Source: a virus. Taken from it: a DNA stretch of 34,456 nt. Under the pieces are notes generated by a model, which saw only the letters and a list, made by a program, of their open reading frames with translations, was not told the DNA's origin and ran no database searches. Positions 5,007 to 33,013 of this stretch are shown here, piece after piece; the first letter of the stretch is position 1; every line of letters starts with the position of its first letter. The stretch covers positions 1 through 34,456 of IMG/VR virus record IMGVR_UViG_3300025294_000211; one strand, given 5' to 3'. Both the position numbers and the translations under genes were made by a program.

Positions 5007-5323
5007 AGCCCGTCCCCCAACTCGCGCCGGTGCTCGGCGGCGTCCTCGGCTGCCATAGCGTCCTTGTCGGCTGCGTCTTCGAGAAGGTGGTTCTTGAAGC
5101 CGTCGCTCTCGTAGATCTCGTGCTCAACCCAGCTGGGGAGGGGGAGCTCGACGGATTCCAGCATTGCCCGTATCTGCTCGACCTCGACCGAACGCGGCTC
5201 CTCCGGCTGGGTGAGCGTCGCAGCGCGGTACCGGTTGACCGAGTAAGCGACCTCTAGGTCCAACTCGATATCGAGGCCGCCGACCGAGATGAGGAGCGGA
5301 GTTTTGATGTGGTACTTGCTCAT
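5003..5323 (-). CDS. Hypothetical acidic phage protein (106 aa)
   Basis: I do not recognise this protein. It begins MSKYHIKTPLLISVGG and has a beta-rich first half (LDIELDLEVAYSVNRYR) and an acidic, helical C-terminus (EDAADKDAMAAEDAAEHRRE). A longer reading frame runs up to 5497, but ATG at 5321-5323 has a clear AAGGAG about 8 nt upstream and overlaps the upstream gene by 4 nt, so I prefer it. The leading 'LLISVGGLDIELDLEVAYSV' strand pattern could form a small beta domain. The protein belongs to the leftward early operon and may work with the recombination genes after it. That is inference only. Confidence 0.75.
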   Translation of the reverse strand: MSKYHIKTPLLISVGGLDIELDLEVAYSVNRYRAATLTQPEEPRSVEVEQIRAMLESVELPLPSWVEHEIYESDGFKNHLLEDAADKDAMAAEDAAEHRRELGDGL

Positions 5324-6215: not shown

Positions 6216-6244
6216 ATATTCGCGACAATCGCAAAATAAGTCAA
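6216..6244 (-). promoter_or_regulatory. Left early promoter (pL-like)
   Basis: On the minus strand, -35 TTGACT (6239-6244) and -10 GAATAT (6216-6221) are separated by exactly 17 bp. Transcription would start near 6209, leaving a leader of about 33 nt before the ATG at 6176. The spacer and -10 overlap a 15-bp dyad (6220-6234) that is identical to one at the right promoter. This is the best sigma70-like promoter in the window by eye. Repression by the phage repressor is inferred. Confidence 0.75.
6220..6234. promoter_or_regulatory. Repressor operator, left site 1
   Basis: TCGCGACAATCGCAA is an imperfect dyad with 6-bp half-sites around a 3-bp centre. The identical 15 bp occur at 7807-7821. It overlaps the -10 and spacer of the left promoter, so binding would block transcription. 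The likely ligand is the repressor encoded at 7002-7727 or the Cro-like protein at 7832-8074. Confidence 0.75.
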
Positions 6245-6253
6245 CAAACAATT

Positions 6254-6268
6254 TTGCGACTGGCGCAA
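6254..6268. promoter_or_regulatory. Repressor operator, left site 2
   Basis: TTGCGACTGGCGCAA has the same 6-3-6 geometry as the other sites, and the dyad extends further outward (ATTTTGCG...CGCAAAAT, 6251-6271). It lies just upstream of the left -35, with its centre 34 bp from the centre of left site 1. Three further partial half-sites follow at about 8-bp intervals to 6290. Binding by the phage repressor is inferred. Confidence 0.65.
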
Positions 6269-6296
6269 AATCGCAAAATCGCGAAATTGCGGGCAA

Positions 6297-11623: not shown

Positions 11624-12328
11624 ATGAGTATCAGCGGCGCCATACGCCGTATGTTGGAGGCCGGTCTTACGATCGAGCAAGCCCTTGTTGCTGCAGAAGC
11701 TTTTGAAGCTGGAGCCGTTCCGCAACAGCCGGCGCTCTCCAAGCGGCAGGAGCGCAACAAGCGATATTACGAGCGTCGTAAAGCGTCTGAAAACCGTCTT
11801 AATTCAGACGCTCAAGACGATTCAGACGGGGAATCTGCCCCTCTTTCCCCGGAAGGTTCTTCCCCCACACCCCCTTCTCCTAAACCCCAATCTTCTATAC
11901 CCCCTTCGCCCCCTAAAGGGGGCTCTTCCCCCGCCGAAATCGATCAGGTTATCGGTGCTTTTTCCGCCATGGCCCGCCAAGCAGGCCTTTCGGTGCCAAA
12001 GGCCATCACGGCATCACGCCGCCGGTCGCTGCTGCTGCGCATCGAGGAACACGGCTTACCTGTCGTTCTGGACGCCATCGATCGCATCGGCCGTAGCCGG
12101 TTCTGCCGCGGCGAGAACGATCGCGGCTGGCGGGCCGATCTGGATTTCCTCTGCCAGTCGAAGAGCTTCGTTTCGATCCTCGAAGGCAAGTACGACGACC
12201 GGCCGTCGGCAGGGGGCGGCCCGAGCTCGCGCTCGCCGCCGTCGTTCTCGTCGACAGCGAAGCCCGGTCAGAGCCGGGAGGAATACCTGGCCGCCGAGCG
12301 GCGCCGATCCGAAAGGAGCTTCCAGTGA
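11624..12328 (+). CDS. Probable phage replication-initiation protein with internal iterons
   Basis: This 234-residue protein has an N-terminal helical segment (MSISGAIRRMLEAGLTIEQA), a basic region (KRQERNKRYYERRKAS, about 44-59), a Ser/Pro-rich linker (about 60-105) and a C-terminal domain with RIEEHGLPVVLDAIDRIGRS and GWRADLDFLCQSKSFVSILE. The last block ('gW.adldfl....~f..ileGkY') is typical of phage replication or helicase-loader proteins. The linker DNA carries six 8-bp iterons, as the lambda O gene carries the lambda origin. ATG at 11624 has no strong ribosome-binding site; an upstream in-frame start at 11594 is possible. It is followed by a LuxR-type HTH gene overlapping by 4 nt. Confidence 0.7.
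   Translation: MSISGAIRRMLEAGLTIEQALVAAEAFEAGAVPQQPALSKRQERNKRYYERRKASENRLNSDAQDDSDGESAPLSPEGSSPTPPSPKPQSSIPPSPPKGGSSPAEIDQVIGAFSAMARQAGLSVPKAITASRRRSLLLRIEEHGLPVVLDAIDRIGRSRFCRGENDRGWRADLDFLCQSKSFVSILEGKYDDRPSAGGGPSSRSPPSFSSTAKPGQSREEYLAAERRRSERSFQ
11774..11828. repeat. Cluster of six 8-bp iterons, candidate phage origin
   Basis: Copies of consensus CGTCTKAA occur at 11774 (CGTCGTAA), 11784 (CGTCTGAA) and 11795 (CGTCTTAA), and in the opposite orientation at 11803 (TTCAGACG), 11812 (TCAAGACG) and 11821 (TTCAGACG). Starts are 8-11 bp apart, about one helical turn. The third and fourth abut to form a palindrome. They lie in the linker of the replication protein gene and are followed by a strand-asymmetric C-rich tract to about 11935. 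Confidence 0.55.
11908..11923. repeat. G/C hairpin in the linker of the replication gene
   Basis: GCCCCC, a TAAA loop and GGGGGC form a perfect 6-bp stem within a C-rich tract (about 11840-11935). It lies just downstream of the iterons. It may be part of the origin structure or reflect only the proline-rich linker. Confidence 0.4.
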
Positions 12329-12531
12329 AACCCGCAAAGGCCATCAACAAGCGCCAGCGAGAGGCGATCTACCTGCTCTCGATCGGCAAAGGGTACGCCG
12401 AAGCGGCGGCGATCATGGGCACCAGGAAGAACACCATCACCCGGTACGTGAACCGGGCGAAGGACGCGACGGGGTGCCCGACCACAATCGGTCTGATCGG
12501 GTACGCGCTTCGAAACGGCATCATCGCATAG
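12325..12531 (+). CDS. Lone LuxR/GerE-type HTH protein (68 aa)
   Basis: The 68-residue protein is a bare LuxR-type helix-turn-helix domain: INKRQREAIYLLSIGKGYAE, IMGTRKNTITRYVNRAKDAT, then IGLIGYALRNGIIA, matching the 'rqrEv..lla.G.s..eia' to 'A...Gii' pattern of GerE domains. The start is GTG at 12325 (overlapping the preceding stop), with AAAGGAG about 7 nt upstream. Lacking any sensor domain, it is probably a phage transcription regulator, perhaps for late genes. Role is inference from position before the terminator and late region. Confidence 0.8.
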   Translation: MKPAKAINKRQREAIYLLSIGKGYAEAAAIMGTRKNTITRYVNRAKDATGCPTTIGLIGYALRNGIIA

Positions 12532-31336: not shown

Positions 31337-33013
31337 ATGCCTAGAACAGGTGGCATCTACAGCCCTCCGGCCGGCACCAAAGGCACGCCGAACACGACGA
31401 TTCAGAGTGTGCCTTACAATACGCTGATCGACGATCTGACGGCCGATGCAAACGCCGCTCGTCCGGTGACAGCCGGCGGTACCGGTGCGACGTCGGCGAG
31501 CGGCGCGCGCACTGCCCTTGGCGTCGAGATCGGGACGAACGTGCAGGCCTATGACGCTGGTTTGCAGTCGATCGCGGGTTTGACGACGGTCGCCAACCAG
31601 ATGCTCTACACCACGGGCACCGACCTCTATGCGACCACGGCGCTCACGCCGTTTGCGCGGACTCTCCTTGACGACGCCGATGCGGCAGCGATGAAGGCGA
31701 CGCTCGGGCTCGCAGCTGTGGCCTCATCCGGATCGGCGAGCGAACTGACCACCGGCACGCTCGCAGACGCGCGCCTGCCTAGCACGATGACCGGCAAGAC
31801 GTTCACCGGCAACGTGCAGAGCGTCATGCTGGCGGCATCGTCGCCGGTCGAACACATGCGACTAGTTCCGACGGACTTCGGCGCAGGAAAACCTGGCCTG
31901 TTTTTCAATCGGACAACCACGACCAAGTACACGGTCTCGATGTACGACGGCGCCGTCAACGGCACGCTCGACCTCGTGGCGTCAAACGTTCAAGTGAACG
32001 GTTCGAATATACTGACTGTTGCCGGTGGGACGTTAACTGGAACCCTTATCGCTCCGACGCTGATCGCCACCTCTGGCAACATAATGATCGACACGAATGG
32101 CAATCGCCATTTGTGGTTCCGTAGCGGGTCTGGGGTGAATCGTGGGCTCCTGTATCACGACAACAGTTTGGAGTCGTTGTCCCTTACGCTCTACAACTCA
32201 TCGGGAGCAGGTGTTCGCGGCTTTCATGTTAAGCAGGACGGTAACGCCTTCTGGGAAGGGCAAAGCCTCCAAATTGGCTACAACTCCGGAACGGCAGAGT
32301 TGCGCCTTAACGCAGGTGTCAACTTCGACTACCGCATCCTTGGAGATACAGGCGGCGGCTTCTTCATCCAGAAGTCGACGAATGAGTGGGCCGGGGCGAC
32401 CAATCTAGTTTATTGGGATAGCAATAATCATGCTGAGTTCGCCGGAAACATCAAGTGTGACAACTACGTCATTAAGAACACGGCCTATGGTGTGTCTGGT
32501 CTGTCTATCGGCAGCGGCGACAATGCCACCTATGCCGCCCACAACGTTCGTCTGAACACGTGGTTCGGCCTCGGGATCTACGATACTTCGAGCAACGCCT
32601 GCCGTATCGTCTTCGATGCACGCTCTGGCAACCTGACGATGACCGGCTCGATCGCAACAGGCGGAACGCATTACGTCGGCAGCGCTGCCGTATTTACCGA
32701 CGGAAATATGCAATTTGCCGGGGGTATGGCCGCCTACGGCACCTACCTCAGTGACGCTCTTAACGCCCGCGCCGTCATCTATACCGGCACGACTGCCGGC
32801 GAAACCAACTTCACCATTGGTCACCACGTTCTCGCGTATCATACGACCGCGCCCGTTAATAACTCCACGGTCAATGTTTGGACCGCAACTAGCAACTTCG
32901 GTTACACCTACAGCACCAATGCAGTCAGTCTGTTGTCGGGAACATGGAGGCAGCGTGGCGGCTTGCAATATTCTTCAGGTAACTATGTAAATCTAGCGCA
33001 ACGGGTGGCGTGA
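31337..33013 (+). CDS. Tail fibre/spike protein
   Basis: The 558-residue protein is a probable tail fibre. Near the N-terminus it has VTAGGTGATSASGARTALGV, a motif found in many phage fibres. The middle is beta-rich, with Asn- and Gly-rich strands (NGNRHLWFRSGSGVN, EGQSLQIGYNSGTAELRLN), and the end includes LLSGTWRQRGGL, a common C-terminal segment of such fibres. There is no S74 domain on it; that domain sits instead on the gene at 24855. The start at ATG 31337 has GGAGA 6 nt upstream; ATG 31331 is an alternative. It should set host-surface binding and hence host range. A fibre-associated gene follows. Confidence 0.88.
   Translation: MPRTGGIYSPPAGTKGTPNTTIQSVPYNTLIDDLTADANAARPVTAGGTGATSASGARTALGVEIGTNVQAYDAGLQSIAGLTTVANQMLYTTGTDLYATTALTPFARTLLDDADAAAMKATLGLAAVASSGSASELTTGTLADARLPSTMTGKTFTGNVQSVMLAASSPVEHMRLVPTDFGAGKPGLFFNRTTTTKYTVSMYDGAVNGTLDLVASNVQVNGSNILTVAGGTLTGTLIAPTLIATSGNIMIDTNGNRHLWFRSGSGVNRGLLYHDNSLESLSLTLYNSSGAGVRGFHVKQDGNAFWEGQSLQIGYNSGTAELRLNAGVNFDYRILGDTGGGFFIQKSTNEWAGATNLVYWDSNNHAEFAGNIKCDNYVIKNTAYGVSGLSIGSGDNATYAAHNVRLNTWFGLGIYDTSSNACRIVFDARSGNLTMTGSIATGGTHYVGSAAVFTDGNMQFAGGMAAYGTYLSDALNARAVIYTGTTAGETNFTIGHHVLAYHTTAPVNNSTVNVWTATSNFGYTYSTNAVSLLSGTWRQRGGLQYSSGNYVNLAQRVA

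Follow-up and report, generated by a model that had tools for sequence, protein, structure and literature searches.

A predicted initiator gene and the repeats within it

The DNA analysed here, called the window throughout, is the 34,456-base virus record IMGVR_UViG_3300025294_000211, whose layout from early to late genes is of the temperate-phage type. To the left of the initiator gene, genes for an integrase, NinB, a single-strand annealing protein, Gam and a CI-like repressor lie on the minus strand; terminase, portal and scaffold genes follow the initiator gene on the plus strand. The gene immediately next to it overlaps the initiator stop codon (Table 1). At the DNA level the window gave only short matches to named phages, with phiLM21 accounting for 3% of the query and rhizobial phages matching at the terminase gene (5% of the query). 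Close relatives of the initiator gene with named hosts came from Rhizobium tropici, Ensifer, Martelella and Gellertiella. A helicase or primase was absent from the 30 window ORFs scanned, a set that covers few of the late genes, and this absence fits use of the host's helicase. The early region of Sinorhizobium phage phiLM21 (L314, 5071-7713) resembles that of the window and has no such initiator; in its place stand the phage's own DnaB-like helicase, a primosomal protein and a DnaA-like gene. The S. meliloti megaplasmid pSymB (L318, 1000-2000) carries a remnant of the initiator gene, decayed and frameshifted. Upstream of the leftward genes, at window positions 6225-6290, we also observed five copies of TCGCAAAA/TTTTGCGA within 60 bp, a cluster that looks like a repressor operator.

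Table 1. Features in and next to the predicted initiator gene (window positions).
Feature	Position	Strand	Basis
Initiator gene, 234 aa, protein P0001	11624..12328	+	ORF, PHROG matches
N-terminal two-helix hairpin, residues 3-30	11630..11713	+	AF2 helices 3-12 and 17-30, two models
Basic helix, residues 40-64, proposed DNA-reading element	11741..11815	+	AF2, motif-repeat covariation
Motif RQERNKRYY, residues 41-49	11744-11770	+	Within basic helix
Iteron 1, CGTCGTAA, 1 mismatch	11774..11781	+	Motif scan
Iteron 2, CGTCTGAA, exact	11784..11791	+	Motif scan
Iteron 3, CGTCTTAA, exact	11795..11802	+	Motif scan
Iteron 4, CGTCTGAA, exact	11803..11810	-	Motif scan
Iteron 5, CGTCTTGA, 1 mismatch	11812..11819	-	Motif scan
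Iteron 6, CGTCTGAA, exact	11821..11828	-	Motif scan
C-rich strand-asymmetric tract, putative unwinding element	11836..11940	+	C-runs, skew, codon bias
G-quadruplex motif, four runs of at least 4 G	11870..11913	-	Motif scan
Hairpin GCCCCC-TAAA-GGGGGC	11908..11923	.	Sequence, fold
C-terminal DnaD/O-like domain, residues ~103-193, proposed helicase-loading part	11930..12202	+	AF2, PHROG, fold
Next gene, 68 aa, sigma/HTH-like	12325..12531	+	ORF call, profile matches below Pfam cut-off

The original prediction had described six 8-bp repeats of consensus CGTCTKAA at 11774-11828, three in each orientation, within the linker of this gene. All six are present, four of them exact and two with one mismatch, and their start-to-start distances of 10, 11, 8, 9 and 9 bp agree with the predicted 8-11 bp. 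They encode residues 51-68 of the initiator, where the basic helix gives way to the linker; the linker is predicted to be disordered, and the C-terminal domain is initiator-like by its PHROG matches. Over the whole window there are five exact copies of CGTCTKAA, including a further one at 32549, compared to a mean of 1.99 in shuffled sequence (6 of 100 shuffles reached five), and 42 copies with at most one mismatch compared to a shuffle mean of 44.6. The motif total is weakly or not unusual, and the clustering is the unusual part. When copies with at most one mismatch were counted on both strands within 60 bp, none of 400 codon shuffles of the initiator gene had six (the maximum, four, was reached by 14 of the 400), and no other place in the window held more than five. 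The window has no DnaA box of the form TTWTNCACA, and no genome-scale switch in GC skew was found at the array, where a local dip is made by the C-rich tract; GC skew was dropped as an uninformative origin signal.

The protein appears to consist of a small N-terminal helical module, a disordered linker and a helical C-terminal domain. AF2 modelling with 24 relatives predicted helices at residues 3-12, 17-30 and 40-63, a disordered linker at about 63-101 and the C-terminal domain (mean pLDDT 71.9, pTM 0.42; pLDDT mostly above 90 for residues 101-190), and the N-terminal 66 residues modelled alone gave the same three helices (mean pLDDT 84.1). Neither model contains a winged helix; before the linker both predict helices alone and no strand. 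The N-terminal hairpin may serve as a dimerisation element. PHROG profiles matched residues 126-200 to phrog_10469, a DnaD-like helicase loader (E 1.9e-16), and residues 54-196 to phrog_345, an O-like replication initiation protein (E 2e-16). In Pfam, P0001 had no match above chance, its N-terminal module included; among 28 N-terminal modules searched, five weak families appeared with one member each, PHROG gave weak matches only, and the window's member had none in either database. P0001 had no match among 50,697 phage records, and the N-terminal profile is rare in host genomes (3 of 151). A viral fold library returned replication-initiator relatives for the C-terminal domain. Against solved structures, neither the whole model nor the N-terminal module had a fold match at E <=0.001, and a second look gave Z values of at most 5.3 and 4.8, respectively. 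A weak match to lambda P (9oa1_Y; Z 4.9, rmsd 3.5 over 71 residues) ranked fifth and was tied with unrelated ATPases, and the best sequence matches of the N-terminal module to solved structures, TALE repeats and designed proteins, were taken as chance. The proposal that the protein is unlike described phage initiators thus holds for the N-terminal module, with no Pfam and weak PHROG matches, and fails for the C-terminal domain, which belongs to a known phage family. One related gene (L022, 4656-5564) carries the same C-terminal domain on a long N-terminal domain without the hairpin and basic helix; it has neither the repeats nor the C-rich tract, and the switch point lies just before the C-terminal domain.

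The strand-asymmetric C-rich tract (50 C, 13 G) and G/C hairpin that had been noted after the iterons are both in place. No other 110-bp stretch of the window is as rich in C-runs or has as negative a GC skew, and the G-quadruplex motif within the tract is the only one with four G-runs on either strand of the window. Its codon usage is likewise skewed: Pro codons end in C or T in 11 of 12 cases and Ser codons in 9 of 10, compared to 69 of 240 and 70 of 295, respectively, in nine other ORFs. Nearest-neighbour sums place the 50-mer at 11850 within the least stable 2.6% and the one at 11900 at the 50% rank. Since the GC content of the tract (60%) equals that of the window (60.6%), it is not an AT-rich element. 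Of 42 genes inspected, 16 have at least four C-runs in their most skewed 90 bp; the window's gene is one of these 16, as are genes carrying other repeats. Genes with a long N-terminal domain had none or one. The tract is absent from five genes with the basic helix (L115, L121, L122, L123 and L124), several of which have a CGCGCGCGTAGARGATAA stretch in its stead. A second form, CCCCCTATANANNATANTCATACCCCC, had six matches in viral contigs, all six immediately following repeats in a basic-helix gene. The C-rich tract and these alternatives may be interchangeable opening elements.

Helix class and repeat class among related genes

The initiator genes fell into three pairings of helix and repeat: RQxRNxRYY with CGTCTKAA (class A), KRRxWDRxRK with CCGGTGGA (class B) and RQxRYRxR with GTRACG (class C). 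Helix and repeat classes were defined post hoc with the data in view, and this is the main weakness of the covariation tests. A search by protein alone yielded 65 non-redundant genes, in which at least three exact CGTCTKAA sites were present in 9 of 12 genes with RQxRNxRYY compared to none of the 53 others (Fisher p 7e-9). The three exceptions are L027 and L037, each with two exact sites, and L047, which ends inside the array. A scan with the repeat alone, as a three-site pattern, gave 15 matches in viral contigs, all 15 in RQxRNxRYY genes, three of these being contigs already known from earlier in the analysis. The same scan of genome contigs gave seven matches, six of them with an R[QR]xRNxRYY gene; the seventh, in a Prosthecobacter MAG (L090, 2740-2880), has at least 10 CGTCTKAA sites and no RQxRNxRYY gene on the contig. 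Among 394 genomes of the Rhizobium tropici family the pattern occurred in four, each with the motif, and the pattern read backwards occurred in none of them. The conservation in relatives on which the original prediction had staked its reading took a more telling form than expected: CGTCTKAA is kept in relatives that keep the RQxRNxRYY helix, and relatives with another helix have another repeat at the same place in the gene.

The other two classes were analysed through their repeats. KRRxWDRxRK adjoins the CCGGTGGA array in 24 of 48 loci and occurs in none of the 2166 other ORFs of those loci; the array has the opposite orientation in 9 of the 24 helix-bearing loci. For GTAACG arrays, among the matches listed, an RQxRYRxR-like motif lies upstream in 35 of 166 ORFs with the pattern compared to 7 of 4349 other ORFs. 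This pattern is loose, and the 120 loci among the matches listed comprise 35 with the motif upstream, 57 with an ORF lacking it and 28 with no ORF.

In 26 non-redundant genes found by protein, the matching repeat was present in 8 of 8 genes of class A, 1 of 1 of class B and 14 of 15 of class C. Helix class therefore predicts repeat class in 23 of 24 class A-C genes, a purity that was unmatched in 5000 label shuffles, whereas the class of the C-terminal domain does not predict the repeat (p 0.81). Two further classes, S and Y, are represented by one gene each with no repeat called, and agreement rises to 25 of 26, or 32 of 34 in a larger set, only if such single-gene classes are counted as agreeing. 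For classes A, B and C, 30 of 31 genes in the 34-gene set carry the matching repeat; this set is biased because it includes loci fetched by their repeats, a bias from which the 26 protein-found genes are free. The 34 genes join class A helices to four types of C-terminal domain and class C helices to five, and one hairpin type (h1, h2) can accompany more than one kind of repeat.

The candidate origin and competing explanations

It is likely that the origin lies in the initiator gene, and with good confidence we read the array, a strong candidate, as the prophage's replication origin, lying within the gene of its own modular initiator, whose helix would bind the sites. In this reading four parts make up the initiator: a short N-terminal helix hairpin, a single basic helix of some length, a disordered linker encoded by the origin DNA itself, and a DnaD/O-like domain at the C-terminus. 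Through its basic helix the protein would bind the CGTCTKAA sites, which follow the phase of the DNA helix, and would probably do so as a multimer held together by the hairpins; the resulting complex may strain the adjoining C-rich tract and cause it to open. The open tract could then be held by folding of the minus-strand G-quadruplex, and the C-terminal domain, on its flexible linker, would deliver the host DnaB helicase to the exposed strand, as its family membership suggests. That the basic helix reads the sites is also likely, to a lesser degree than the origin itself.

The array could be an origin in which helix and repeats are merely neighbours that travel together, the contacts being made by the hairpin or the C-terminal domain. 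The helix motif ends at 11770 and the first repeat begins at 11774, a gap of 3 bp that implies joint inheritance. However, the pairing of helix and repeat holds across at least three hairpin types and five types of C-terminal domain, and it stays when the order, orientation and frame of the arrays are reshuffled; moreover, arrays do not follow the C-terminal domain class, and a given hairpin (h1 or h2) is found with different arrays. We consider simple co-travelling unlikely.

We regard it as unlikely that the array is an operator through which the initiator or another phage regulator controls its own transcription, with replication starting elsewhere. Site arrays in or near early genes can be operators, and the window has a separate operator-like cluster at ~6225-6290. 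Against this, the class of the array follows the initiator's own helix and not the other parts of the gene, and the linker of an initiator is a known place of phage origins. That the array follows the basic helix within the gene in all 34 non-redundant genes is a result of the collection method only.

The conservation of the repeats resides in the DNA. Across 19 genes, the window included and the set not thinned for redundancy, 116 exact sites use all six reading registers (26, 30 and 12 on one strand; 9, 14 and 25 on the other) and encode peptides of RLK, ASE, TVLI, LRR, IKT or SD type. In 14 modules thinned at 85% identity, from which the window's own was dropped as more than 85% identical to another, adjacent sites on the same strand are 9-11 bp apart in 51 of 56 pairs, 10 bp being commonest (27), and for adjacent sites on opposite strands the distance is 8 bp in 16 of 34. 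A spacing of 10-11 bp matches the period of the DNA helix and is not divisible by three, which indicates that it is not driven by the peptide; combined with the use of six registers, the ~10-bp phasing shows that DNA, not peptide, is conserved. Similarly, CCGGTGGA is found in either orientation in KRRxWDRxRK genes, so that the encoded peptides differ. It is therefore highly improbable that the repeats arose by accident from a linker peptide of low complexity or are repeated at the peptide level: the linker is indeed disordered and of low complexity, and 24 of the 48 CCGGTGGA pattern matches are simple or glycine-rich repeats without the helix, but peptide-preserving codon shuffles lose the array, and we rejected this explanation on the shuffles, register use and spacing.

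Relation to known origins and wider reading

Lambda O and the window's initiator both combine an N-terminal origin-binding part with a C-terminal loader-side part, predicted in the case of the window; where lambda O has a long N-terminal domain, a winged helix, the window has the hairpin and basic helix. In SPP1 the origin likewise lies within the gene of the initiator, the replisome organizer G38P. The Tuc2009 record annotates orf16 as containing the origin, and the 80alpha record places a rep_origin within ORF20. The proteins of TP901-1 (ORF13) and Tuc2009 (ORF16) bind repeats in their own genes, as stated in excerpts of PMC8965321, and 80alpha ORF20 could not be complemented in trans according to an excerpt of PMC5499656. 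Origins inside initiator genes are an already known plan. In contrast to the window, no RQxRNxRYY/RQxRYRxR motif occurs in the TP901-1, Tuc2009 and 80alpha proteins, whose N-terminal regions are longer. The parallel with the lambda origin that had been drawn for this locus is apt in that an initiator-like gene carries repeats in a linker predicted to be disordered; passages of PMC7466680 place the iterons of lambda, and of Stx phages, in the middle of gene O, next to the tract that must open. The two differ in that the tract of lambda is AT-rich and its loader, P, is a separate protein (described in part in PMC7466680), while the window has a C-rich tract and a DnaD/O-like C-terminal domain in the initiator itself. 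As far as we searched, what is new is the minimal N-terminal module, together with the covariation of helix with repeat and its spread; no description of a recognition module made of a hairpin and a basic helix was found in the open-access literature, and the word 'iteron' is absent from PMC12429752, on phiLM21-like prophages.

ORF15 of Staphylococcus phage phi11 (L317, 595-1401) carries RQQRYREKQK and, after it in the linker, GTAACGTTAC repeats, which is the class C pairing, and differs from the window in its repeat and in a long N-terminal domain before the basic helix. The array in gene 15 is a candidate origin in a well-studied phage, and a search for GTAACGTTAC together with phage had no match in the open-access literature.

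The basic regions of bZIP proteins offer an analogy, since there too one basic helix reads a short site, as proposed here, and some module members show the N-x7-R/K spacing of bZIP. The window's helix has no leucine zipper: it is predicted to end at residue 63-64 and to be followed by the disordered linker ASENRLNSDAQDDSD, where in bZIP proteins the zipper comes directly. Profiles of 20 and 64 positions found no bZIP protein among solved structures (both weak tests), and the fold-search rows for the module all had Z below 5. Kinship with bZIP was set aside on the profile searches, and the likeness is kept as an analogy only. Palindromic CGTGACGTCACG-like repeats in two loci (L066, 1-100; L049, ~5180-5210) contain TGACGTCA, a site known from eukaryotic bZIP proteins.

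More broadly, phages of several bacterial phyla may share an undescribed, exchangeable origin-recognition helix, with a protein-DNA code and a self-contained origin cassette, a generalization for and against which we find the case evenly balanced. One basic helix, carried on a tiny hairpin or on a winged helix, would read a site a few bp downstream in its own gene, and the three helix/site classes (A, B and C) would form a natural recognition code. Because helix and sites lie within ~90 bp, the cassette could move as one between helicase loaders. In many temperate phages no origin has been mapped; should the match of helix and repeat be true, the initiator sequence by itself would suffice to locate the origin and predict its binding site, and the swaps would explain how same-genus prophages exchange helicase loaders with the origin retained. 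Given the covariation, origin recognition can be put to a direct test in many phages that are still uncharacterised, and the natural swaps supply ready protein-DNA pairs with which to ask how specificity is set by one helix. The tract is also a case of overlapping constraint, one stretch serving as binding sites and as coding sequence in six registers.

Many related contigs start inside the module of repeats and C-rich tract (L014, L015, L028-L031 and L033-L035) or end inside it (L047 and L061), probably because several prophages per genome share the module and so break the assembly there.
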